DNA of 40,037 nucleotides, taken from assembly GCA_030065635.1 (NCBI GenBank), contig JASJDJ010000039.1, positions 1 through 40,037 on the forward strand, written 5' to 3'. The notes under the pieces are model-generated. The model saw only the letters and a list, made by a program, of their open reading frames with translations. It ran no database searches and was not told where the DNA came from. The position numbers and the translations under genes were made by a program. This stretch comes from Xenococcaceae cyanobacterium MO_188.B32 (GTDB lineage: Bacteria > Cyanobacteriota > Cyanobacteriia > Cyanobacteriales > Xenococcaceae). Shown piece after piece: positions 2,291-18,774 of the stretch. Numbering within the stretch: position 1 is the stretch's first letter; the number at the start of each line of letters is the position of its first letter.

Positions 2291-3193
2291 ATGAAACTAG
2301 GGCAAAAAAGTGACAAATTCTGGTTATTTTCCAGTCTAGTCAGTTCTGCTGTTTTATATCTTAATTTAAGTTGGAAAACTACGGCGGATATAGATAAGCT
2401 GACGACAGAATCTCTATTTTGGATTGCTATTCTCTGGTTGCTATGGCGACGGCGAGATAAACTCAACTTTAACAGCAATCTTTTTTCTACTTGCTTTGGT
2501 TTAGTCTTAATTTTTTTGGTACTAGCTAAAAGCTTCTCTCTTTTTTGGTTTGAATCTACTTTAATTCCTTTAATGCCGATTTTTCTTAGTTTCGGTTTAG
2601 CTTTAATTGCTTCTGGGTTTAAAGGATTACGGCAATATTGGCGAGAACTATTTTTTACTTGGTTTTTATTTTTCCCTGAAGGAGTTATCGGTACCTTAAT
2701 AGATAAGTTCATTCGTATTACAGTTATCAATGCTAAATTAGCGAGTTTTGTGCTGCACTATGTGGGATTTAATGTTAGTAGCTATAGCAATCACGTAGTT
2801 CTGGAATTGCCCGAGTTGGGTAAGTTTACTGCCTTAGTAGATTATCCTTGTGCAGGAATACCAATGATTGTTTTGATGCTGAGAATATCTCTGTTATTAG
2901 TTGCTTTTTTCCCTTTACCAAAAAAGGAACGTATTTTAGTACCTTTAGTATCTTTAGGGATTGGATTTGGATTGGGGGTTATTCGTGTCTGTATTCTCAC
3001 CTTGCTAATATCAGAAAAGGCTAAATTTGATTATTGGCATGGCGCTGAAGGTTCGCAAATTTTTTCAACCCTAGCTATTGTTATTTTTTCTTTCTTTTGT
3101 CACTCGGTACTCAAAAAATACGCTCTTTTTGATTCCGTTCAAAAGTCAGAAGTTATCAAGGTTCAAGAAGTTCAGAATTCAGGAGTTCAGTAG
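2291..3193 (+). CDS. crtA: Cyanoexosortase A
   Basis: A 300-residue polytopic inner-membrane transpeptidase/protease that recognises and processes PEP/PFE-CTERM proteins. The three invariant exosortase residues are present: Cys187 in DYPCAG, Arg232 in GVIRVC and His250 in DYWHG. They lie between about eight hydrophobic segments in the usual order. Length fits the family. The last ten codons (VQEVQNSGVQ) are made of the CTGAACTCCTGAA-type repeat read in reverse, so the cytoplasmic tail may be a repeat-derived add-on. Its partner protein follows 44 bp downstream, and a likely substrate lies upstream. The symbol is the exosortase-family name and must not be confused with carotenoid crtA. Confidence 0.88.
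   Translation: MKLGQKSDKFWLFSSLVSSAVLYLNLSWKTTADIDKLTTESLFWIAILWLLWRRRDKLNFNSNLFSTCFGLVLIFLVLAKSFSLFWFESTLIPLMPIFLSFGLALIASGFKGLRQYWRELFFTWFLFFPEGVIGTLIDKFIRITVINAKLASFVLHYVGFNVSSYSNHVVLELPELGKFTALVDYPCAGIPMIVLMLRISLLLVAFFPLPKKERILVPLVSLGIGFGLGVIRVCILTLLISEKAKFDYWHGAEGSQIFSTLAIVIFSFFCHSVLKKYALFDSVQKSEVIKVQEVQNSGVQ
3161..3190. repeat. CTGAACTCCTGA-type repeat inside the exosortase 3' end
   Basis: On the minus strand it reads as CTGAACTCCTGAATTCTGAA and continues. It matches the repeats at 261-296 and 3957-3982. It forms the final codons and runs up to the stop codon of the exosortase gene. Confidence 0.5.
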
Positions 3194-7338: not shown

Positions 7339-8229
7339 ATGGGTGCAATTAAAAGATTACGTTCGAGAAAAATAGTCGATCGACAAACAGATTGGGTAGT
7401 TTACACTCCCAAAAGTCGAATGAAACAACCAGCTCTATTGTTAAAAGAGCTATGGCGAGATTTGCTTGCTTCTCGCGAATTAGCCTGGCAGTTGTTAGTA
7501 AGGGATATTAATGCTAAATACCGTCAATCTTTGTTAGGAGTTGTCTGGGCTTTTATTCCACCAATTATTACTGCTGCTGGTTTCACTCTTGCCAAAGGAA
7601 ATGGAGTTATCAATATTGGCAATACAGACTTACCTTATCCAGCCTATGTAATGTTTAGCATGACCTTATGGCAGACTTTTGTGGAAGCACTTAATGGACC
7701 AATTCAGGCAGTAACTTCAGCAAAATCGATGCTAGCTAGGATTAATTTTCCCCGTGAAGCAATCATTCTGAGCAAACTGGGAGAAGTTTTCTTTAATTTT
7801 GGTATCAAGCTAATTTTGATTTTTTTACTTTTTCTCTGGTTCAAAATGCCAGTGACTGGAAGTGTAATTATCGCTCCTGTGGCTTTAATTCATCTAGTCT
7901 TACTAGGAACTTTTCTTGGTTTAATGCTTGCACCTATGGGCGCACTTTATAAAGATATTTCGATGGGGGTTACTTTAGTTACTGGATTTTGGTTGTTTCT
8001 GACTCCTGTTGTCTATCCAGTTCCTAGTGAAGGGATGTTTGGCGCGATCGTTAGATTGAACCCTGTCACTCCTTTACTAGTGACGACAAGGGAATTAGCT
8101 ACCACAGGGGTTATTTCCGATCCTGTCGGTTTTTGGATAGCTAGTGGAATGAGTGTAGTTGGGTTGATAGTAGCTTGGATTATTTATCGAGTAGCCATGC
8201 CTTATGTAGTTGAGAGGATTAGTTCCTAA
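7339..8229 (+). CDS. wzm: ABC-2 polysaccharide exporter permease (Wzm/KpsM/TagG type)
   Basis: A 296-residue permease with about six membrane segments after a cytoplasmic N-terminal interface helix (LLASRELAWQLLVRDINAKY, about 40-59). The block YRQSLLGVVWAFIPP and the later RLNPVTPLL stretch are typical of O-antigen/teichoic-acid exporters. It pairs with the ATPase that begins on its last base (TAATG overlap). It moves a lipid-linked glycan across the inner membrane. An AAAGG ribosome-binding site ends 7 bases before the ATG. Confidence 0.88.
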   Translation: MGAIKRLRSRKIVDRQTDWVVYTPKSRMKQPALLLKELWRDLLASRELAWQLLVRDINAKYRQSLLGVVWAFIPPIITAAGFTLAKGNGVINIGNTDLPYPAYVMFSMTLWQTFVEALNGPIQAVTSAKSMLARINFPREAIILSKLGEVFFNFGIKLILIFLLFLWFKMPVTGSVIIAPVALIHLVLLGTFLGLMLAPMGALYKDISMGVTLVTGFWLFLTPVVYPVPSEGMFGAIVRLNPVTPLLVTTRELATTGVISDPVGFWIASGMSVVGLIVAWIIYRVAMPYVVERISS

Positions 8230-9542
8230 TGATCATTAGTATGACAGACCAACCTTCGTCGAGTAAGACAGAAGATAGTGAAGTTGTTCTCTCAGTTGAG
8301 GGAGTGTCTAAAAAGTTTTGTCGAGATTTAAAACGGTCTTTGTTTTATGGAGTTCAGGATATTGCTAGCGATCTATTAGGAATTAGAGAAAAAAGTGACA
8401 AAATCAGAAAAAAAGAGTTTTGGGCTTTAGATAATGTCAGTTTTGAGCTAAGACGAGGAGAAGCACTAGGCTTAGTTGGCAAAAATGGTAGTGGTAAATC
8501 TACTTTGCTGCGTATTATTGCAGGTTTGATTAAACCCGATCTGGGAACAGTCAAAGTTAAAGGTAGAGTAGCACCGCTAATTGCTTTAGGTGCCGGTTTT
8601 AATCCCATTCTGACAGGGCGAGAAAACATCTATGCCAATATGTCAATCTTGGGTTTAACTAAACAAGAAATTGACGATCGATTTGATGAAGTAGTAGAGT
8701 TTGCCGAGATTGGTGATGCGATCGATTCTCCAGTGCAAACCTATAGTTCTGGTATGGCTGCGCGTCTTGGTTTTGCTACTGCGATTCATACTGAACCAGA
8801 TATTTTATTAATTGATGAAGTTTTGTCAGTAGGTGATATTAAATTTAGAGGAAAATGCACTAGAAAGTTAGCTGATTTACGAACAAAAGGAACATCTTTT
8901 TTAATAGTTTCTCACAATTCCTCGACAATTTCATACGTATGTCAAAATGCAGTCTATCTTTGTCAGGGAGAATTAGTCACTCAAGGACGAGTAAACGATG
9001 TATTAGAAAAATATGAAGAAGATTTATTTTTAAATAAACACAACATAGAAAGCTCCGTTTTGAAGATTCCGAAAAAGTCAAAATCTCATAGTCACGGTTT
9101 AGACATCAAATATGTATGTTTCAAAGACGAGCAAGGCATTATTATAGAATCGCCAAAAGTAGGAGAATATGCAGCGTTGTGTGTTGGCTGTAGTGCTTGG
9201 AAGAATTTTTCTTCAATAGCTCTTTTTGTAAATATTAGAGATTTGAGTAGAGAAGGAGAATCAATTCTCAAAGTTTCAAACTATTTCGATCGCAATTTTA
9301 TATCTGTTACTGATGAAGAAATAGAAATACAGTTCCAGATGACCCCATGTCATTTTAGACAGGGGATATATGAAGCAACACTAGTTATAAATACCGTACC
9401 TCCGCCAGGTAGAATTGATGAAGTTGAATCCTTCAAGTTTCAAGTTAAGGATAGAAATCAGATTAGCGGAATAGGAGTAAATACCAATATGTTTTATCAG
9501 CCTCGACAATGGCAAGTCTTGAAGTCAATATCTTTCAATTAA
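8229..9542 (+). CDS. wzt: ABC polysaccharide exporter ATPase with C-terminal glycan-binding domain (Wzt)
   Basis: 437 residues. The ATPase domain (about 20-260) has Walker A GKNGSGKST (Lys90), signature YSSGMAARLGFA, Walker B DILLIDEVLSVGD and the H-loop VSHN. The extra C-terminal part (about 275-437) is beta-rich and matches the Wzt C-terminal domain. In known O-antigen exporters this domain binds the modified non-reducing end of the finished chain. Two methyltransferase genes follow directly, which fits export gated by a terminal methyl group. The start could be 8229 (overlaps the permease stop) or the ATG at 8241. Confidence 0.9.
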   Translation: MIISMTDQPSSSKTEDSEVVLSVEGVSKKFCRDLKRSLFYGVQDIASDLLGIREKSDKIRKKEFWALDNVSFELRRGEALGLVGKNGSGKSTLLRIIAGLIKPDLGTVKVKGRVAPLIALGAGFNPILTGRENIYANMSILGLTKQEIDDRFDEVVEFAEIGDAIDSPVQTYSSGMAARLGFATAIHTEPDILLIDEVLSVGDIKFRGKCTRKLADLRTKGTSFLIVSHNSSTISYVCQNAVYLCQGELVTQGRVNDVLEKYEEDLFLNKHNIESSVLKIPKKSKSHSHGLDIKYVCFKDEQGIIIESPKVGEYAALCVGCSAWKNFSSIALFVNIRDLSREGESILKVSNYFDRNFISVTDEEIEIQFQMTPCHFRQGIYEATLVINTVPPPGRIDEVESFKFQVKDRNQISGIGVNTNMFYQPRQWQVLKSISFN

Positions 9543-9607: not shown

Positions 9608-10399
9608 ATGAAAAAGCAAATTAAAGCTGCTCTGACACCCGTTTTAATGAATTTTGGACAACAAGTTTTAAAAAACAAAGTTTCTACTGAGCAAACTGCT
9701 TCCTCCCATCTAATTGAGATTGAGGGTAAAAGTATATATCTCCCTAAAAAATCTCTATTTAAGTTTAATTACGAACATATTTTTAGCCATCTGACGACCA
9801 GTATTGATACCCCAGTAAACTTTATTCAGATTGGCTCTTTTGACGGGATTACAAACGATCCAATTCGCAAATTTGTTATTAACCATTCATGGAAAGGTAT
9901 TTTTGTTGAGCCGATTAAAGAATATTACGATCGGCTTTTGAAAAATTATGATGGAATTGAGGGTTTAATTTTTAAAAATGTCGCTATTGATAGCAAGCCT
10001 GGACATCGTTCAATTTATCGCTTAAGACCTGAAGCTATTTCTCTTACTCCCTATGCACCTCAATTTAGCACATTTAATCGAGAAGTGCTAACAAAGAGAA
10101 AAAATAAATTTCCAGAGATTGAATCTTTAATTGAAGAAGTTAATGTGCCATGTATGACAGTTCAAGAGATTATCAATACAGAAGGAATGACACGAGTTGA
10201 TTTAGTTCAAATTGATACAGAAGGTTACGACTTTGAAATACTTAAATCTATTGATTTACAACTTATAAAACCCTCTGTAATTCGGTATGAGCATATTCAT
10301 CTGAAAGATGAAGATCGACAAAAAAGTGTCGATTTATTGGTTAATAATGGATATAAAATTCTTTTTGAAAGAATGGATATTACTGCATATAAGTTATAA
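9608..10399 (+). CDS. FkbM-family SAM-dependent methyltransferase
   Basis: A 263-residue cytoplasmic methyltransferase. SAM-binding motif I reads VNFIQIGSFDGITND (about 71-85). The acidic FVEPIKE at about 99-105 and the FkbM hallmark VDLVQIDTEGYDFEIL (about 198-213) follow. FkbM enzymes O-methylate sugars or polyketides. Directly behind wzt, it may methylate the chain end or a side sugar. It is intact, unlike the second FkbM gene at 21813. Confidence 0.82.
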   Translation: MKKQIKAALTPVLMNFGQQVLKNKVSTEQTASSHLIEIEGKSIYLPKKSLFKFNYEHIFSHLTTSIDTPVNFIQIGSFDGITNDPIRKFVINHSWKGIFVEPIKEYYDRLLKNYDGIEGLIFKNVAIDSKPGHRSIYRLRPEAISLTPYAPQFSTFNREVLTKRKNKFPEIESLIEEVNVPCMTVQEIINTEGMTRVDLVQIDTEGYDFEILKSIDLQLIKPSVIRYEHIHLKDEDRQKSVDLLVNNGYKILFERMDITAYKL

Positions 10400-10441: not shown

Positions 10442-11371
10442 ATGGCTCTTATGTATGAAGATGCAGTTTTTCTGCAAAAGTTAATCAACTACATGAATAA
10501 GTATTCAGACGGACATAAAGCTCATAAGAAAACGGCTGTTTTTCTTGGAAATCCTGGTTCTAATATTACCTACTCTACTTTTAGTAATTTACTTGATAGA
10601 TTGAGAATTGAATGTAATCAAACAATAAAATCCAAAAAAAATCAGAACCAAAAAATAGGTATTAGAGATTTTTTTAGTTCTTTAGGATTTGATGAGTTTA
10701 AAGCCATAGATTTTAGTGACTATGAAGGAGCTGATATTGTTCATAATTTAAATAATATCAATTTACCTGAGAAATATCATTCTATAGCAGACTTAATCTT
10801 TGACACTGGAACTCTAGAACATTGCTTTAATATTCCAAATGCCCTTCAAAACATACACAAAATATTAAAAGAAAATGGAGTTATTGTTCATGTTCATCCA
10901 GTCAATGGATACGTCGATCATGGTTTCTATCAAATATCTCCTACTTTGCTACATGATTACTATGGAACTAATCAATATAAAATTTTAGGCTTTGTTATAT
11001 GTCCTGAAGTTCATTATAAGTATTCTAAATACTATTTTAAGATGCAACAATATTCGGAAGATGTTTATTGGAAAAATGGCTACGATACCTATCATACCTA
11101 TAACAAAATACCTTCTCACTACCCCAGAGCAATTCTCTGTTTTGCTGCACAGAAAACAAGCAAAAGTACTTGCTCTCAGCAAATTATACAAAGCTGGTAT
11201 CGGCAGGTAAATAGCCTTGAAAATATTTCATATAATACCTCAATAGAATTTAATTATGAAATTAAAAAACCAATACCGATCTTTAATTTTTCTTTTTTGA
11301 GACTACTAAAAGGTTTTTCTTCGATCGAAAAAACTTTGAATTTGAATTTCGATCTCTATTACCCTAACTAA
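10442..11371 (+). CDS. Class I SAM-dependent methyltransferase-like protein
   Basis: 309 residues with a degenerate methyltransferase core. ADLIFDTGTLEHCFN and NALQNIHKILKENGVIVHVHP (about 118-157) match motifs around the acidic and post-II regions of type-11 methyltransferases. The glycine-rich motif I is poor; only the DFSDYEGADIVHNL region (about 93-107) could replace it. SAM binding therefore needs proof. It sits between an FkbM methyltransferase and the three-domain protein, so a role in glycan tailoring is likely. Starts at 10442 and 10451 are both possible. The sequence is more AT-rich than wzc and wzt. Confidence 0.62.
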   Translation: MALMYEDAVFLQKLINYMNKYSDGHKAHKKTAVFLGNPGSNITYSTFSNLLDRLRIECNQTIKSKKNQNQKIGIRDFFSSLGFDEFKAIDFSDYEGADIVHNLNNINLPEKYHSIADLIFDTGTLEHCFNIPNALQNIHKILKENGVIVHVHPVNGYVDHGFYQISPTLLHDYYGTNQYKILGFVICPEVHYKYSKYYFKMQQYSEDVYWKNGYDTYHTYNKIPSHYPRAILCFAAQKTSKSTCSQQIIQSWYRQVNSLENISYNTSIEFNYEIKKPIPIFNFSFLRLLKGFSSIEKTLNLNFDLYYPN

Positions 11372-11501: not shown

Positions 11502-14315
11502 ATGTATAGTGACTGTTGCTTTGTGACATCTTGTGATTCAAATTATTTTCAAGGTGCTTTAAGTTTAATTTCGAGTATACGTTGTTTTTCTAATTTCCCC
11601 ATAGTTTTTCTTGATGCTGGAATAACTAAAGCTCAACAAGAACAATTAAAGTCACGAGTTGATAAAGTCGTCGATATCACTGAATTATTAAATGATTTTA
11701 GTAGTCTAAAAATAGTTCATAAACACTTAAAAATATCTGCATTAGCTTCACTTTTTTCTCACTATTCAGGTTATGAAAGACAAATCTATATGGATGTTGA
11801 CACTCTTCTTCTGGGAAAAGTCGATTTTGTTTTTAATTTTTTGAGAGACTTTGATATTGTTGGAGTAAGAGCAGGGGTCAGAAGTACTTTAGAATCATCA
11901 ATCTCCCATTCAATGCGTGATGAGATCGCGCCAGAATCATTAGATATATTTCGCTCTATTTTTCCTGGATTAAAGCTTGACGGCTTATGCTTGAATACGG
12001 GTTTTGTAGGCGTAAATTCATCTGTTTTAAAAGACTGGGAGAAAAACTATCAAAGTCTCTTTCAGTATATGGAGCATTATAAGTTTGTCGATCAATCTAT
12101 TTTTAATTTATTATTAAATTCTTTTTCTAACTCTATTAAAGAGTTACATTGGAGCTACAATTTTGCTGGTATTTCCGATTCACTTGATGAATCTAAGAGC
12201 TCTTTTAGTTTTGTTGCGACAAAATCGTTACCTCAATTTCTCTATCAAGCAAATTATCAAGCAAATTTTATAAAAGTTCCGCATTTTTCAGGTAAACCTA
12301 AACCATGGGAACTACAAAATCAATCACCTGGGTTTAAAATTTGGAATCATTTTAGTTCTATGCATTACAATCAGTCTGATTCAAGTATTAAAGATATTAA
12401 TATTATTCTCGATGAAAGTTGGTTTATTCAAGATGAAATTAATGCTAAGAATAAGTTTGAAATTATTGACAGGCATTTGGGAAATAATTTAAATATAAAA
12501 AATAGTAAAAATTTAGTCTTAGGATTGGGTTCGAGTTCAGCAAGCTTTCTACGCTTAATGCAAGCTGCTGGGTTTAAGGCATTCTGTTTAGAGCAAAGTA
12601 ATATCGATCTTAAGGCTATTCAAGAGAGATATGGATTTGAAATAAAAAAGAGTATTCTCAAAAAAACAGAATTTTCTCAGAAGTTCAATTTAGTTGCGAC
12701 TTTTGATTCTATCGAATATGCCAAAAATCCGATTGCTTGTTTGAGTGATATTAATTATCTACTAGAAATTGGTGGATATCTTTTTGTAGAATGTCAGAGT
12801 ATTGAGCGTTGGTATAGTGGCATTCTTGATTTTTCGCTCGATGATATTTGTCTGATTACTTTATCAGAGAAAGTCATTTTTTCTTTGTTAGATAAAGCTG
12901 GGTTTCAGATTATTGATAGTGGCTGGAATGGAATTATATTATGGGTTATTGCTAAAAAAGTTAGCCCAGATATTATTTCAGTTGCCTCAAATGACATTGA
13001 TGTAATTAAAACTATTATTCAAGAGACAGTTAGTAAATCTGACGGAAGCTACCATAAGGCTAGTAAATTGGGTAGTTTTGCTTCTTTAACTCAGAGAGGA
13101 TTGACGTTAGCAAAAAAGTCTCCCTTGCAAATTCCTTCAAAGATTTTAGCCAAGGTGAAAAAACGCTTTGGCATGACTGCAAATCCTCTGGATGCACAGA
13201 ATATTGCACTAAAGCCTCATAAAATATTAGCCAAAAGCTTAAAAATTGCTCATGTAGGTTTACACGGTAATGGTAACGCAGGCGATACTCTCCTATTTCC
13301 AGCAGTTAGATGGCTTTTCCAAAAAGAAGTTTGTCCAACTCACTTTACCCTTATCCCACTCCGTGAACCAGTAACTCAAGATACAATTGCTCAAATTAAT
13401 CAGCAAGACGCTTTAGTTATTGGTGGCGGTGGTCTATTTCTTGCAGACTCTAATCCTAATGAACGTTCGGGTTGGCAATGGGCTTGTCCAATAGAACTTT
13501 TAAAACAAATTAAAGTTCCGATTATTTTGTTTGCCGTTGGATATAATCAATTTCGCGGACAGAAAAACTTTGCACCAATTTTTGAACAAAATGTTCAATT
13601 GTTGATTGAGAAAAGTGCCTTTGTTGGTATTCGTAATCGAGGTAGTATTGAAGCTCTAAAAGATTATTTGCCTGAGTCTTTACATGAGAAAATTCACTAT
13701 CAACCCTGTCCAACTACTGTCCTGAGACATTTTTATCCAGATTTGCCTCAACATACTGAAGCTTCAAAGCCCATATTAGCTGTTAATATTGCCTTCGATC
13801 GTCATCATCTTCGCTTTGGCAAGCGAGAGGATGAAATACTGTGGAATATGGCTGATGCTTTCTTAGAGCTAAAGAGCCAAGGATGGCAGATTAAGCTTTT
13901 TAATCATGTGTCTATTGATGGTGACGCTCGTTATTGGTTTAGGGCAAGAGGTCTTTTTGCGGAGGAAGTTAATATTGGTAGTGTTCCACCTGTTGATATT
14001 CTGCATGAATATTCCCAAGCTACTATTGCTGTAGGAATGCGAGGTCATGCACAAATGATTCCATTTGGTTTACATCGTCCTATCTATAGTCTGATAAGTC
14101 ACGATAAGCTGCAATTTTTCCTCGATGATATTGGGCATTCTGATTGGGGGGTTGAGGTGCAAGATCCCACTATTTCTGAGAAGTTGATTCACGATCTTAA
14201 TGACATCTATACAAATCTTCCTCACAGAGAGACTCAGTTGGAAACAGCACAAAGCAAGCTATGGAGTCTCACACAGCAAAATTTAGACCTTATTAAGAAA
14301 GTCCTCAATGTATAA
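11502..14315 (+). CDS. Three-domain protein: GT8-like glycosyltransferase + methyltransferase + pyruvyl-transferase-like
   Basis: 937 residues, unusually long. Domain 1 (about 1-310) is a GT8-like glycosyltransferase with the DxD metal site YMDVDTLLLG (Asp98, Asp100) and the late His261 of HFSGKPKPW. Domain 2 (about 330-490) is a class I methyltransferase with LGLGSSSASFL (Gly341, Gly343) and a later GGYLFVECQS. After a Lys/Ser-rich linker, domain 3 (about 580-937) is of the polysaccharide pyruvyl-transferase/CsaB type: GNAGD (591-595), VIGGGGLF, and GMRGH (845-849). It could add a sugar, methylate it and place a pyruvyl ketal, though domain 3 may act on another substrate. An AGGG ribosome-binding site lies 10 bases upstream. 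Its stop overlaps the next start by 8 bases. Confidence 0.82.
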   Translation: MYSDCCFVTSCDSNYFQGALSLISSIRCFSNFPIVFLDAGITKAQQEQLKSRVDKVVDITELLNDFSSLKIVHKHLKISALASLFSHYSGYERQIYMDVDTLLLGKVDFVFNFLRDFDIVGVRAGVRSTLESSISHSMRDEIAPESLDIFRSIFPGLKLDGLCLNTGFVGVNSSVLKDWEKNYQSLFQYMEHYKFVDQSIFNLLLNSFSNSIKELHWSYNFAGISDSLDESKSSFSFVATKSLPQFLYQANYQANFIKVPHFSGKPKPWELQNQSPGFKIWNHFSSMHYNQSDSSIKDINIILDESWFIQDEINAKNKFEIIDRHLGNNLNIKNSKNLVLGLGSSSASFLRLMQAAGFKAFCLEQSNIDLKAIQERYGFEIKKSILKKTEFSQKFNLVATFDSIEYAKNPIACLSDINYLLEIGGYLFVECQSIERWYSGILDFSLDDICLITLSEKVIFSLLDKAGFQIIDSGWNGIILWVIAKKVSPDIISVASNDIDVIKTIIQETVSKSDGSYHKASKLGSFASLTQRGLTLAKKSPLQIPSKILAKVKKRFGMTANPLDAQNIALKPHKILAKSLKIAHVGLHGNGNAGDTLLFPAVRWLFQKEVCPTHFTLIPLREPVTQDTIAQINQQDALVIGGGGLFLADSNPNERSGWQWACPIELLKQIKVPIILFAVGYNQFRGQKNFAPIFEQNVQLLIEKSAFVGIRNRGSIEALKDYLPESLHEKIHYQPCPTTVLRHFYPDLPQHTEASKPILAVNIAFDRHHLRFGKREDEILWNMADAFLELKSQGWQIKLFNHVSIDGDARYWFRARGLFAEEVNIGSVPPVDILHEYSQATIAVGMRGHAQMIPFGLHRPIYSLISHDKLQFFLDDIGHSDWGVEVQDPTISEKLIHDLNDIYTNLPHRETQLETAQSKLWSLTQQNLDLIKKVLNV

Positions 14316-15021
14316 CCCCCTGAAGTTGTCACAATTAAAAGTTGCCATTATCCCAGCAAGAGGAGGATCGAAGGGTATCCCTGGTAAAAATATTCGTTCC
14401 CTTGCAAACAAACCTCTGATTGTTCATTCTATTCTAGATGCACGAGAAGCCCAACTTGTCGATCGGATTTATGTCTCTACGGATGACTGCAAAATTGCGG
14501 AAATTTCTAGAGATTATGGCGCAGAAATAATTAACCGTCCTGATGAATTAGCAGGAGATACAGCTTCTTCGGAGTCGGCTTTAATTCATGCAGTTAAACA
14601 AATTGAAGCTACTGGAGTAGTTATAGATTTAGTAGTGTTTTTACAATGCACTTCTCCTATTAGAACAGGAACAGATATTGACAATGCCATCAGAAAGGTT
14701 AAAACAGAAGGGGCAGATTCTTTGTTGTCGGTTTCTTCTGACCATAGATTTCTTTGGCAAGAAGTTGACGGCGTAGCTAAATCAATCAACTACGATTACC
14801 GTCGTCGTCCTCGTCGTCAAGATATGCCATCACAGTACGTAGAAAATGGTTCTATTTATATTTTTAAGCCCTGGGTGTTGAAGGAGTTAAATAATCGCCT
14901 CGGTGGTAAAATTGCCCTTTTGACCATGAGTGAAGCAGCAAGTTGGGAAATAGATTCTTTTCTGGATTTTGAAATTGCCGAATCTTTACTTAAAAAGCAG
15001 GTTATAGCCAATGCTTATTGA
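14308..15021 (+). CDS. neuA: CMP-nonulosonate (sialic-acid-like) synthetase
   Basis: A 237-residue cytidylyltransferase that activates a nonulosonic acid with CTP. The N-terminal nucleotide loop IIPARGGSKGIPGKNI (about 14-29), VFLQCTSPIRTGTDIDNA (about 110-127), YVENGSIYIFKP and the C-terminal EIDSFLDFEIAE are the family's blocks. Length is normal. It overlaps the genes on both sides (8 and 11 bases), so it is translated with the NeuB fusion. The sequence does not say whether the sugar is neuraminic, legionaminic, pseudaminic or KDN (neuA, legF or pseF equivalents). Confidence 0.85.
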   Translation: MYNPLKLSQLKVAIIPARGGSKGIPGKNIRSLANKPLIVHSILDAREAQLVDRIYVSTDDCKIAEISRDYGAEIINRPDELAGDTASSESALIHAVKQIEATGVVIDLVVFLQCTSPIRTGTDIDNAIRKVKTEGADSLLSVSSDHRFLWQEVDGVAKSINYDYRRRPRRQDMPSQYVENGSIYIFKPWVLKELNNRLGGKIALLTMSEAASWEIDSFLDFEIAESLLKKQVIANAY

Positions 15022-17257
15022 TAGAAATATAGCTAAATATATTGTCTTTGCTGAAGACAGTGTCATTAATGCTTTAAAAAAGATTAGTGACAACAAGAGT
15101 AAGGTTATCTTTTCTGTAACCGAGTCTGGAAGACTAGAAGGAGTGATGACCGATGGTGATTTTCGCCGTTGGTTGATAACTCAAAAGACGATCGATCTTA
15201 ATAAGTCAGTTTCTAAAGTTGCCAATAAAAACTTCAAGTATGTCTTTGACGGGGATGAACCAGAAAAGATTCAATCTTACTTATCAGACAAAATTGAGTT
15301 TGTACCTTTAATTAATAAAAGCCATCATTTAGTTGCTGTTGCCAGAAAACGCTCTAATATTGTCCAGATTGGGGAGTTTACGATAGATGCAGAGTCTCCT
15401 AGCTTCATTATTGCGGAAATTGGAAATAACCATAATGGTAGTTTGGAATTAGCGCGACAACTAATTGACGCAGCCGTATTAGCAGGTGCAAATTGTGCCA
15501 AATTTCAACTACGGGATCTGAACTCTTTATATGTTAATGCTGGTAATGCTAACGATGCCAAAGAAGATTTAGGCTCTCAATATACTTTAGACTTATTATC
15601 TCGCTTCCAATTAAGTCCAGAGGAGATGTTTGCAGCCTTTGACTATTGTAAAGAGCAAGGTATTTTACCTTTATGTACTCCTTGGGATAAAAATAGTTTA
15701 AGTCTATTAGAAGACTATGGAATGCCAGCTTATAAGGTTGCTTCTGCCGATTTTACTCATCATGACTTTTTAAAGGTGTTGGCGAAGACAGGCAAACCTT
15801 TAATCTGTTCGACGGGGATGTCAACAGAAAATGAGATTATCGAAACAGTTAATTTATTACAGGGTTTAGGAGCAATTTATGTATTACTGCACTGTAACTC
15901 TACCTATCCTGCCCCTTTTAAAGATATTAATTTAGCTTACTTAGACCGTCTGCGAGAATTGGGAGATTGTCTTGTAGGGTATTCTGGTCATGAAAGAGAT
16001 ATTAATGTAGCGATCGCATCTGTGGCAAGAGGGGCAAAAGTGATTGAAAAACACTTTACCCTAGATAAATCTATGGAAGGTAACGATCATAAAGTGAGTC
16101 TCTTACCCCAAGAGTTTCAAGCAATGGTAGAGGGGATACGCCAGGTAGAAACAGCCATCGGTAGTTCAGGCGATCGCCGTTTGAGTCAAGGGGAATTGAT
16201 GAACCGCGAAACCTTGGCTAAAAGCTTAGTTATCAATTGTGATTTGCAGTCAGGAGAAATTATTACTGAATCGATGATTGAGGTTAAAAGTCCAGGTAAG
16301 GGCTTGCAACCCAATCGGAAAAAAGAGTTAATCGGCAAAAAAGCCAAAAGAAACTTTAAAACAGGAGATTTTTTCTATCCTAGCGATCTAGAACAAGAAA
16401 GAGTTTTAGCTCGTGCTTACAAGTTTAAACGTCCTTGGGGTCTGCCCGTACGCTACCACGACTTTAAAACCATTTTAAGTAAAACCAATCCTGACTTATT
16501 AGAGTTTCATCTCAGTTATAAAGATTTAGAACAAGATATTAAACAGTATTTCGATCGAGTTTACGATTTAGATTTAGTCGTACATAGTCCCGAATTATTT
16601 GCAGGGGATGTCATTTTAGACTTATGTTCTACAGATAACGATTACCGTCAGCATTCAATTCAAGAATTGCAACGAGTAATTGACTTAACGCGATCGCTTA
16701 AACCCTATTTCAGTCAAGCTTCTCGACCCTGTATTGTAACTAATGTGGGCGGTTTTACAGAAGACAAACCTTTACCAAGTTCCGACAAAAGCCAATTATA
16801 CGAACTGCTAATTTATAGTTTATCTGCTTTAGACACAGAAGGAGTAGAAATCATCCCCCAAACTATGCCTCCTTTCCCTTGGCATTTTGGCGGACAACGC
16901 TACCATAACTTGTTTGTTGCTCCCCAAGATACGGTGCGATTCTGTCAAGAACAAAACTATCGCATCTGTCTAGATGTGTCTCACTCTAAACTCGCTTGCA
17001 ACCATCATAAATGGTCTTTTAAAGAATTTATCGAACAAGTAGCTGGCTATACAGCCCATCTACATATTGCTGATGCTGAAGGGATAGACGGGGAAGGATT
17101 ACAAATTGGTGAGGGGGATATTGATTTTCCTGCTTTAGCGGAAGACTTAGCCAAAACAGCTAGTCAAGCCTCTTTTATTCCAGAAATATGGCAAGGACAC
17201 AAAAATGATGGTGAAGGGTTTTGGATTTCTTTAAATAAACTCGAAAAATATTTCTAA
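15011..17257 (+). CDS. neuB: Four-module nonulosonate synthase: CBS pair + NeuB + SAF + TIM-barrel
   Basis: 748 residues, about twice the usual NeuB length. Residues 1-115 look like a CBS pair (VMTDGDFRRWL), a possible nucleotide sensor. Residues about 121-390 are the NeuB barrel that condenses PEP with a hexosamine: EIGNNHNG (136-143), KFQLRD, HCNSTYPAP, GYSGHE and KVIEKHFTL are all present. Residues about 398-460 are the SAF/antifreeze-like lid (SPGKGLQPN, IGKKAKRNF). Residues about 467-748 form a second barrel of the xylose-isomerase/AP-endonuclease-2 type (ICLDVSHSKLACNHH, HLHIADAEG, EIWQGHKNDGEG) with metal-ligand-like His/Asp/Glu. The last module may prepare the precursor or act on the product. 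It overlaps neuA by 11 bases. Confidence 0.85.
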   Translation: MLIDRNIAKYIVFAEDSVINALKKISDNKSKVIFSVTESGRLEGVMTDGDFRRWLITQKTIDLNKSVSKVANKNFKYVFDGDEPEKIQSYLSDKIEFVPLINKSHHLVAVARKRSNIVQIGEFTIDAESPSFIIAEIGNNHNGSLELARQLIDAAVLAGANCAKFQLRDLNSLYVNAGNANDAKEDLGSQYTLDLLSRFQLSPEEMFAAFDYCKEQGILPLCTPWDKNSLSLLEDYGMPAYKVASADFTHHDFLKVLAKTGKPLICSTGMSTENEIIETVNLLQGLGAIYVLLHCNSTYPAPFKDINLAYLDRLRELGDCLVGYSGHERDINVAIASVARGAKVIEKHFTLDKSMEGNDHKVSLLPQEFQAMVEGIRQVETAIGSSGDRRLSQGELMNRETLAKSLVINCDLQSGEIITESMIEVKSPGKGLQPNRKKELIGKKAKRNFKTGDFFYPSDLEQERVLARAYKFKRPWGLPVRYHDFKTILSKTNPDLLEFHLSYKDLEQDIKQYFDRVYDLDLVVHSPELFAGDVILDLCSTDNDYRQHSIQELQRVIDLTRSLKPYFSQASRPCIVTNVGGFTEDKPLPSSDKSQLYELLIYSLSALDTEGVEIIPQTMPPFPWHFGGQRYHNLFVAPQDTVRFCQEQNYRICLDVSHSKLACNHHKWSFKEFIEQVAGYTAHLHIADAEGIDGEGLQIGEGDIDFPALAEDLAKTASQASFIPEIWQGHKNDGEGFWISLNKLEKYF

Positions 17258-17268
17258 AATTGAGAGCA

Positions 17269-18774
17269 ATGGAACAGACAAAACAATGGAAATACGAGGA
17301 TTTTCATTTCCCAGAGAGAGGGGAAGCACTCGCTTTTTGGCAAGCACAGCAAATACTAGCAAAGGAAGACCCAGATCTTTCTAAATATTTTAGGTATTTA
17401 ATTTATAATGTCGAATTTGCTGAATCACAGTTTATAGATACAAATAAAATACAAATAAACAAGCATCTTAAAATTTATCGAAAGATTAAATCTTTATTTT
17501 TAACTCTAATAAGCTTTCTTGCTAAATTTAATCAAAGACCAAAACTTCACTATGACATTTTAATCAATCCTTCATTTTCAACTATTTCTCGCAAATCAGA
17601 ACAAAAAATACTTTTTGAACTTGTAAATGCCTGCTTGAGTCTCAATCATAAAGTAGGAATTGTAAGCGATCGCAGAACCCAAAATCTTTTTCAAGATTTA
17701 TTTACAGATAATGAACATCTTTCATTTATACAAATAGATTTTATTTTCGGAAAATTTGTCAGAAAAATACTACTATTTTTATCTAGACTTATTTCTAGAT
17801 TAGACTTATATCTAATCTCAGAATTACTAGTAAGAAATAATATTAAATTTAAACAAGATGTTAATTGCAATTTACTTATATTTTCGGAGTTAGTATGGTT
17901 TTGCCTCATAGGAAAAATCAATTTCGATCTTGCCATTTTACGCTGTGAGTGGGATGACCATTCCTTTTCTATCAAGGAGTATGCTAAGCGAATTAATAAG
18001 CCTGTTTTTTGTTTTCAACATGGTGTCATCAGTCATTCATTGGATATCCCTGTTACGGTTAATAGATTTTTTACATTCGGAGAACAATCAGCACAACTAC
18101 TACAGTCCCTAAATCAGCAATTTTATAAATTGATTTATCAGAATTGCAAAAAAGTTGAATTTTGTGCTGTTGGATCGATAATTGACTCCATAGTCAAAAC
18201 TGAAAATAATTTTGCAGAAAAAACCGTTCTTGTTATCGATCAATCTGTAGGAAGGGCTGTTAAGTTTAATGGTCTTAAGAACCAAATTGATGAACTTAAT
18301 TATTTGATTAAAAATTTTTTAGAACTTGAAGATATTAAAAAAATTATTATTCGACCTCATCCTCAAGCAAGTTTTTCTGACTTTTGGAATTACTGTTTAG
18401 CAAACTTTTCTAATAAATTTGAAGTTTCCAACCCTAAACTATCTTTAACAACTGATGTTAAAAGAGGTTCAATAGCGATCGGACTTTTTAGTGGTGCATT
18501 AGTTACTTGTGCAGCTAGTGGTTTACCTAGTTATTTTCTAACCTGCGAGAAAGCATACTATACTCCAGATCTAGAATGCTTTAGAGAAAATTTTACACTA
18601 CCAAAAGATAAACTATATTCAGAAATAAATCACATAATCAAAGATGAAGTAGCTTATCTTTCAAAAAGAGAACAATGTCTTAAAGCCAGTCAAGCATACT
18701 ACAAAAACAATAATAATTGCGTCTTAGATAAATCTTTTTTTACTAAATATATTAGTACTTTCAAATGTTCTTAA
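17269..18774 (+). CDS. GT-B-type transferase, candidate nonulosonate transferase
   Basis: About 501 residues. The fold is inferred from HGVISHS (from His251), IIIRPHPQAS (RPHP 362-365) and GLFSGALVTCAASGLP near 405. These are blocks of capsule-type GT-B enzymes related to Kdo/sialyl/glycerophosphate transferases, where the His-Pro pair contacts the CMP part of the donor. It lies 11 bases behind the NeuA/NeuB pair, so it is the best candidate for using the CMP-sugar made by them. A TTG nine bases upstream (17260) is a less likely start. Hydrophobic stretches at about 75-90 and 165-185 may bind the membrane. It is AT-rich and poorly matched to any family I can name exactly. Confidence 0.6.
   Translation: MEQTKQWKYEDFHFPERGEALAFWQAQQILAKEDPDLSKYFRYLIYNVEFAESQFIDTNKIQINKHLKIYRKIKSLFLTLISFLAKFNQRPKLHYDILINPSFSTISRKSEQKILFELVNACLSLNHKVGIVSDRRTQNLFQDLFTDNEHLSFIQIDFIFGKFVRKILLFLSRLISRLDLYLISELLVRNNIKFKQDVNCNLLIFSELVWFCLIGKINFDLAILRCEWDDHSFSIKEYAKRINKPVFCFQHGVISHSLDIPVTVNRFFTFGEQSAQLLQSLNQQFYKLIYQNCKKVEFCAVGSIIDSIVKTENNFAEKTVLVIDQSVGRAVKFNGLKNQIDELNYLIKNFLELEDIKKIIIRPHPQASFSDFWNYCLANFSNKFEVSNPKLSLTTDVKRGSIAIGLFSGALVTCAASGLPSYFLTCEKAYYTPDLECFRENFTLPKDKLYSEINHIIKDEVAYLSKREQCLKASQAYYKNNNNCVLDKSFFTKYISTFKCS

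Follow-up and report, generated by a model that had tools for sequence, protein, structure and literature searches.

The window analysed here is the whole of contig JASJDJ010000039.1 (40,037 bases; assembly GCA_030065635.1) of the Xenococcaceae cyanobacterium MO_188.B32. Positions 11502–14315 of its forward strand hold a frame that is open from ATG to stop and encodes a protein of 937 amino acids; a preliminary description of this DNA had called the frame unbroken, and its translation bears this out. Four segments follow one another in the protein: a glycosyltransferase family 8 (GT8)-like domain (11502–12326, residues 1 to about 275), a degenerate class I methyltransferase domain (MT; 12399–12971, residues 300–490), a helical linker (12972–13226, residues 491–575), and a PS_pyruv_trans domain (PT; 13227–14312, residues 576–937). 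Directly downstream on the same strand lie the genes of a cytidine monophosphate (CMP)-nonulosonate synthetase (CTP_transf_3, PseF-like; 14308–15021), whose start overlaps the 3′ end of the 937-codon gene, and of a 748-residue NeuB-type synthase (15011–17257) with a weak CBS-like N-terminus, a SAF domain and a C-terminal xylose-isomerase-like TIM barrel. Below, Zn denotes a zinc finger, and L and G numbers denote loci and genomes.

All three folds that the preliminary description had predicted were detected by domain searches. PS_pyruv_trans matches residues 592–863 with 73.7 bits (Pfam cut-off 25.3), Methyltransf_23 matches residues 332–471 with 27.6 bits, barely over the cut-off of 27, and Glyco_transf_8 (PF01501) matches residues 7–270 at a sub-threshold score (21.9 bits, E 1.4e-4, cut-off 24.3), covering positions 2–250 of the 253 in the profile. 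The DxD metal motif and the C-terminal HxGxxKPW are characteristic of GT8 proteins. Both are kept here, as they are in stand-alone GT8 relatives to which the domain was aligned (D98xD100 and HFSGKPKPW 261–269, together with DQ 197–198 and YN 219–220), and phmmer connects the domain to glycogenin-1 at an E value of about 1e-3. Structure prediction, proposed earlier as a check, succeeded for PT (predicted local distance difference test, pLDDT, 95.7) and for the MT fold (72–94 per ten-residue block, with a dip to 42 at 441–450) but not for residues 1–300 (25–61). The linker is common to the Zn-MT-PT relatives in alignment, and its helices are predicted at low pLDDT (43–61).

Among the residues previously singled out as key, D98, D100, H261, GNAGD (591–595) and GMRGH (845–849) are indeed in place; of the methyltransferase glycines, given as Gly341 and Gly343, both exist but only the second is a motif residue. 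A GxGxG loop with a preceding acidic residue is the S-adenosylmethionine (SAM) motif of class I methyltransferases, and the relatives of this domain follow that pattern, with GCGTG in the cyanobacterial ones. The window protein reads GSSSA at residues 343–347: G343 is the only motif glycine, the second and third glycine positions are occupied by S345 and A347, and G341 stands where the relatives carry the acidic E. Also gone are the histidine of VIEH (EH to EY) and the histidine, asparagine and phenylalanine of DVHINTFS (DVHINTF to DICLITL).

The extent of the decay was measured on 13 MT domains, comprising that of the window, nine others fused to PT and three from separate neighbouring genes. 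Of 24 columns that do not vary among the other twelve, the window domain breaks 15. Under the same leave-one-out scoring, with the window never among the references, L066 breaks 8 of 32 columns, L065 3 of 27, L051 and L060 1 of 25 each, and the remaining eight none of 24; with only rows of less than 70% identity as references the outcome is unchanged (0–3 columns, and 8 for L066). The Methyltransf_23 score of 27.6 bits compares with 89.7–92.0 bits in three same-family orthologues. Identity between the window and G375 is 41% in MT and 57% in PT, as against 65% and 59% between G008 and G375. The first two codon positions have a G+C content of 34.3% in the MT of the window and 39–44% in four relatives, and the third positions 24% versus 25–32%; homology to intact relatives is nonetheless evident by hhalign (E 9e-30). 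Because the domain has lost key residues, it is very probably dead, and the proposed three-in-one enzyme, which was to couple sugar transfer, methylation and ketal formation in one polypeptide, probably does two jobs. A Methyltransf_23 match just over threshold is here the trace of a decayed domain, and with it the tempting idea of three enzymes in one has to be corrected.

Three genomes of the same family (G002, G003 and G008) and one of another family (G375) encode a conserved protein of 720–733 residues that is orthologous to the window protein over MT and PT. The orthologues begin with a CxxC/CxxC zinc finger, continue with an MT whose motifs are intact and end with the same PT; their genes follow Wzt and precede the CMP-synthetase and NeuB genes, with one additional gene after Wzt in G375. 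Since four other genomes have this arrangement ahead of the same gene pair, the 937-residue protein is not a product of chance. It has no zinc finger, and the GT8 domain stands in its place. On a PT tree from which the duplicates L018, L019, L052 and L054 were removed, the window belongs to a clade of six rows (support 100/99; four rows Zn-MT-PT) nested in a clade of 11 rows (99/97; seven rows Zn-MT-PT); the PT alignment (A4) omits five of 51 usable PT segments (L072, L077, L096, L105 and L106), and L107 and L109 were too short for it. Considering (i) the intact Zn-MT-PT proteins at the same place in four genomes and (ii) the nesting of the window with them on the tree, it seems that GT8 took over the place of the Zn domain while MT decayed where it was. 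MT+PT is a recurrent fusion, known here from three phyla; what is unusual is GT8 in place of Zn, seen in one genome among those searched.

Among 388 genomes of the order and 388 of the class (overlapping samples), GT8 and PT share a frame in the window only, in a search that left out at least one long PF04230 frame (G734:C16, 658 residues) and metagenomes. BLAST with the GT8 domain found no second such frame in the 52 named PT loci introduced below. A GT8-domain search of 196 genomes matched 22 other genomes, all in frames of 232–348 residues, and none of seven long PF04230 control proteins carries GT8 (five are FrhB/FdhB fusions and two PF04230 only). The one other genome of the genus that was searched (90% complete) has no match; no relatives came from a genome-contig scan with P0001 alone or from viral contigs, and phage records gave no match. 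In the open literature, among titles, abstract beginnings and the matches listed, we found no paper describing the GT8-MT-PT fusion or its PT subfamily.

The C-terminal domain is likely a phosphoenolpyruvate (PEP)-dependent ketal pyruvyltransferase, judging by its residues. In the passages cited, NxGD, RxxxS/T and an arginine, a histidine and a lysine of the PEP site are reported for the ketal pyruvyltransferases WbbZ, Pvg1p and CsaB (PMC10629545, PMC10435577), and the PEP-binding residues of CsaB are given as R148, R306, H308 and K328 (PMC10435577). The window protein has N592xGD595, R711xxxS715, R847xH849 and K869, and N592, G594, D595, R711, S715, R847, H849 and K869 are each present in 47 of 47 members of its subfamily and in 28–30 of the 30 best-scoring other PF04230 proteins. 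The equivalents of the four CsaB residues, assigned by motif without aligning CsaB itself, are likewise kept in 47 of 47. PT is not a CsaB equivalog (TIGR03609: 32.2 bits, cut-off 213). The subfamily has a signature of its own, SGWQW (656–660) and GYNxFRGQ (680–687); SGWQW, N682, F684, Q687, D766-R767, H802 and H867 are invariant or nearly so within it and rare in other PF04230 proteins. The PT model is GT-B-like (against BshA, Z 21.2, root-mean-square deviation 3.9, 309 aligned residues), with OGT homologues, UDP-GlcNAc 2-epimerases and other GT-B proteins as top Foldseek matches; Pvg1p and WbbZ were not among the best 50 structural matches listed, and the PT profile matched no sequence in the PDB. 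The two best viral matches of PT are annotated as WcaK-like pyruvyltransferases.

Members of the subfamily were gathered by two peptide patterns, not by gene context, which yielded 52 named loci from Cyanobacteriota, Bacteroidota, Bacillota, Pseudomonadota, Verrucomicrobiota, Planctomycetota, Actinomycetota and others; two of them, L095 and L096, are nearly copies of each other. The position directly upstream of nonulosonate genes, noted earlier for the window alone, turned out to be part of a stronger pattern: 39 of the 52 loci have a NeuB-type gene and 38 a CMP-synthetase; 35 have both and 42 at least one, and in 28 one of the two is found within 300 bp of PT. Restricting the count to the 44 loci of at least 10 kb gives both genes in 32 and at least one in 37. 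Neither gene occurs in ten loci; three of these are contigs shorter than 5 kb (L067, L077 and L106), and the other seven (L063, L065, L080, L086, L089, L103 and L107) have longer flanks and are counter-examples. Among 40 control loci with other PF04230 proteins, hand-picked from 92 places in the window's phylum (lower-scoring ones and some high-scoring ones, three from the genome of the window itself), one has both genes and four have either. The comparison counts genes within 7.6 kb in the targets and over the full 9–17 kb in the controls, uses NeuB and CMP-synthetase profiles partly trained on target loci, and includes among its four control positives a distant relative (L149, 48.5 bits).

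PT of this subfamily occurs alone, after a Zn-finger MT, after a decayed MT, and after N-termini without an assigned family, some of which look by eye like coiled coils; GT8 precedes it in the window only. The Zn-finger MT is in one frame with PT in L058–L063 and L065 and a separate gene in L069 and L073. In Croceicoccus (L068 and L075) and Sphingomonas desiccabilis (L094) the PT proteins carry an N-terminus without a Pfam match, which hhalign aligns to the MT profile (score 45.1, E 2.6e-6, probability 88.7%; 100 column shuffles scored no higher than 25.2 and the reversed control 11.9). It has no GxGxG, and in L068 and L075 a separate Zn-finger methyltransferase gene, recognised by eye from its sequence, follows the PT gene. 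Because these three loci form a clade apart from that of the window on the PT tree, the two decays of MT look independent. Elsewhere in the phylum, L163–L167 have PF04230 fused behind FrhB/FdhB-type domains, and two of these five also contain 4Fe-4S ferredoxin domains. A second type of protein, of 435–463 residues with an N-terminal NWGC(R)AT motif, takes the same operon place in L051 (11544–12935), L053 (10479–11795) and L209 (4574–5881); the L209 gene was called PF04230 in the genome search.

Upstream of the 937-codon gene and on the same strand lie genes of ATP-binding cassette (ABC) export. The Wzm-like ABC-2 polysaccharide exporter membrane subunit (7339–8229) is 71–76% identical in three same-family relatives. 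The Wzt-like ATPase (8229–9542; Pfam) is strongly diverged from the same relatives in its C-terminal half, and the match to the C-terminal carbohydrate-binding domain PF14524 falls short of its cut-off (19.9 bits against 30.4). Identity to G002, G003 and G008 is 72–76% in the nucleotide-binding domain and 32–36% in the C-terminal part, versus 80–83% and 71–76% among those three. This divergence would fit an altered exported end group; it is weak evidence, because G375, which keeps Zn-MT-PT, differs from the three as well (31–35%). Two extra genes separate wzt from the 937-codon gene, one for an FkbM-type methyltransferase (9608–10399; Pfam) and one for a methyltransferase-like protein of 309 residues (10442–11371; sub-cut-off Pfam matches only). 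A Wzc-like gene is also found upstream, and an exosortase gene (2291–3193) lies near the export genes.

Of the 37 open reading frames (ORFs) of at least 100 residues in the window, 30 were scanned with Pfam, and genes of an amino-sugar pathway, DegT aminotransferases for example, are absent from these. Given this and the sugar-isomerase-like barrel on the synthase, a sugar of the 2-keto-3-deoxynononic acid (Kdn) type is plausible at this locus. In L073 (10086–12105) a short NeuB without SAF stands beside a CMP-synthetase fused to a HAD phosphatase, as identified by Pfam in that locus; NeuB/CMP-synthetase pairs of similar size are common beside the PT subfamily among L069–L105, which suggests a phosphorylated Kdn-type route. 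The ORF at 17260–18774 (504 residues, no Pfam match) shows by eye the FQHG and RPHPQ of GT-B transferases and is on that ground a candidate nonulosonate transferase; a PDB sequence search with it found nothing.

Combining these findings, we consider it somewhat probable (about 0.6) that the gene encodes a remodelled tailoring enzyme, with GT8 transfer, ketal pyruvylation and an inert MT, of an ABC-exported, nonulosonate-containing surface polysaccharide. Its ancestor would be a Zn-finger methyltransferase fused to a nonulosonate-linked PT; in this genome GT8 would have taken the place of the zinc finger, and MT, having lost its SAM site, may survive in an inert role, as a spacer or for docking. 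On this view sugar transfer and pyruvylation are expected and methylation is not: the GT8 domain likely transfers a sugar, the C-terminal domain likely makes a pyruvate ketal from PEP, and the middle domain very likely does not methylate. The data show the gene and its domains, the orthology, the decayed SAM motif, the PEP-site residues and the gene linkage; the activities, the acceptor, the sequence of fusion and decay and the spacer role are inferred from them. On balance the acceptor of the pyruvate would be the nonulosonate or its neighbouring sugar.

Several observations weigh against this proposal. The Pfam score of GT8 is slightly under its cut-off, the model over residues 1–300 is unreliable, and the GT8 form is known from one genome's assembly only. 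E364 and E405 are kept in the window MT, and with its predicted fold the domain could possibly bind something else. The linkage does not tell which sugar receives the pyruvate, and its converse fails. The 748-residue synthase is present, whole or in part, in 22 of 291 genomes searched in the order, that of the window included, and PT clearly lies within 1.5 kb flanks in 5 of the 22; G024 has a weak 18-bit PT match, and in G153 PT and a CMP-synthetase are on another contig. When eight synthase loci without PT were extended, several held other genes at that place, e.g. methyltransferases and another pyruvyltransferase-like protein. As synthase loci mostly occur without PT nearby, PT appears to accompany nonulosonate loci optionally, and a role as an enzyme of nonulosonate synthesis was rejected on the same count.

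A broader reading can be advanced tentatively, as somewhat short of even odds: the PF04230 subfamily would be a dedicated Kdn-type nonulosonate pyruvyltransferase, spread over seven or more phyla. It would supply the enzyme class still missing for polymers of pyruvylated Kdn and serve as a chassis for exchangeable N-terminal modules (Zn-finger MT, GT8, coiled coils and others) on which MT has decayed to an inert form at least twice. 7,9-Pyruvylated Kdn is a documented cell-wall sugar of Promicromonospora citrea, and the review passages that describe it name no enzyme for pyruvylated Kdn (PMC6801904); the PT subfamily is a candidate. Its value is that of a compact, testable pyruvyltransferase subfamily tied to sialic-acid-like sugars across phyla.

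The alternative that survives best, and which we still judge rather unlikely, is that PT is an ordinary pyruvyltransferase whose acceptor is some neutral sugar in the polymer; the linkage would then merely reflect shared polysaccharide loci. Galactose is the commonest pyruvylated sugar among the recorded structures in the part of the survey cited (PMC10629545), and nonulosonate genes frequently occur without the subfamily; however, NeuB or CMP-synthetase genes are seen in only four of the 40 other PF04230 loci, and its members conserve a distinct signature away from the PEP site. A distinctly less probable idea is that the subfamily switched its donor and became a CMP-nonulosonate glycosyltransferase, either reaction yielding a carboxylate-bearing ketal carbon. 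The strong linkage to genes for NeuB and CMP-synthetase, the GT-B-like fold and several basic and aromatic residues peculiar to the subfamily (R767, H802, H867, W658 and W660) would suit such a transferase. The PEP-site residues are kept, however, and another transferase is available in L051 and L073, since an alpha-2,8-polysialyltransferase-family gene adjoins NeuB in the former and CMP-synthetase in the latter, which led us to reject this idea as the leading view; in the window, ORF 17260–18774 is by eye a further candidate.

An assembly or mis-joining artefact at the GT8-MT junction is very improbable: the GT8 form is confined to one genome, but the frame is open across the join, MT is itself decayed and AT-shifted, which is not an effect of mis-joining, and a low G+C content (about 30–32%) is common to the upstream FkbM gene, the 309-residue gene, GT8 and MT. 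A repeat search at the junction gave only short imperfect pairs among those listed. Least credible of all is a polypeptide in which all three domains are active and glycosylate, methylate and pyruvylate one decoration, since in spite of three detectable folds and an MT fold predicted with fair confidence, the motif losses and the 15 of 24 broken invariant columns led us to reject an active methyltransferase.

Among known systems, the Klebsiella pneumoniae O4/O7 terminators resemble the 937-codon locus in having an ABC-transporter locus with tailoring modules fused in one protein, although their abstract-level description names no GT8 or pyruvyl module (PMC11231755); in the K. pneumoniae O1b antigen, also ABC-exported, a terminal pyruvate is added by WbbZ according to the passages cited (PMC10629545). 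The ketal pyruvyltransferases of PF04230 (CsaB, Pvg1p, WbbZ and WcfO) share with PT the NxGD, RxxxS, RxH and lysine of the PEP site and a GT-B-like fold; unlike them, PT has SGWQW, GYNxFRGQ, DR 766–767, H802, H867 and the linkage to nonulosonate genes. The sphingomonad proteins (L068, L075 and L094) likewise join a PT of the subfamily to a decayed MT-like N-terminus, and they differ in having no GT8 and, in L068 and L075, a separate Zn-finger methyltransferase gene behind them. The Zn-MT-PT proteins of Myxosarcina, Pleurocapsales LEGE 06147, Paenibacillus MSJ-34, Saprospiraceae and Flavobacteriaceae (L058–L063 and L065) have MT and PT in the same order and, as in the window, nonulosonate neighbours (five of the seven); they differ from the 937-residue protein in that the zinc finger and the SAM motif are present and GT8 is absent.

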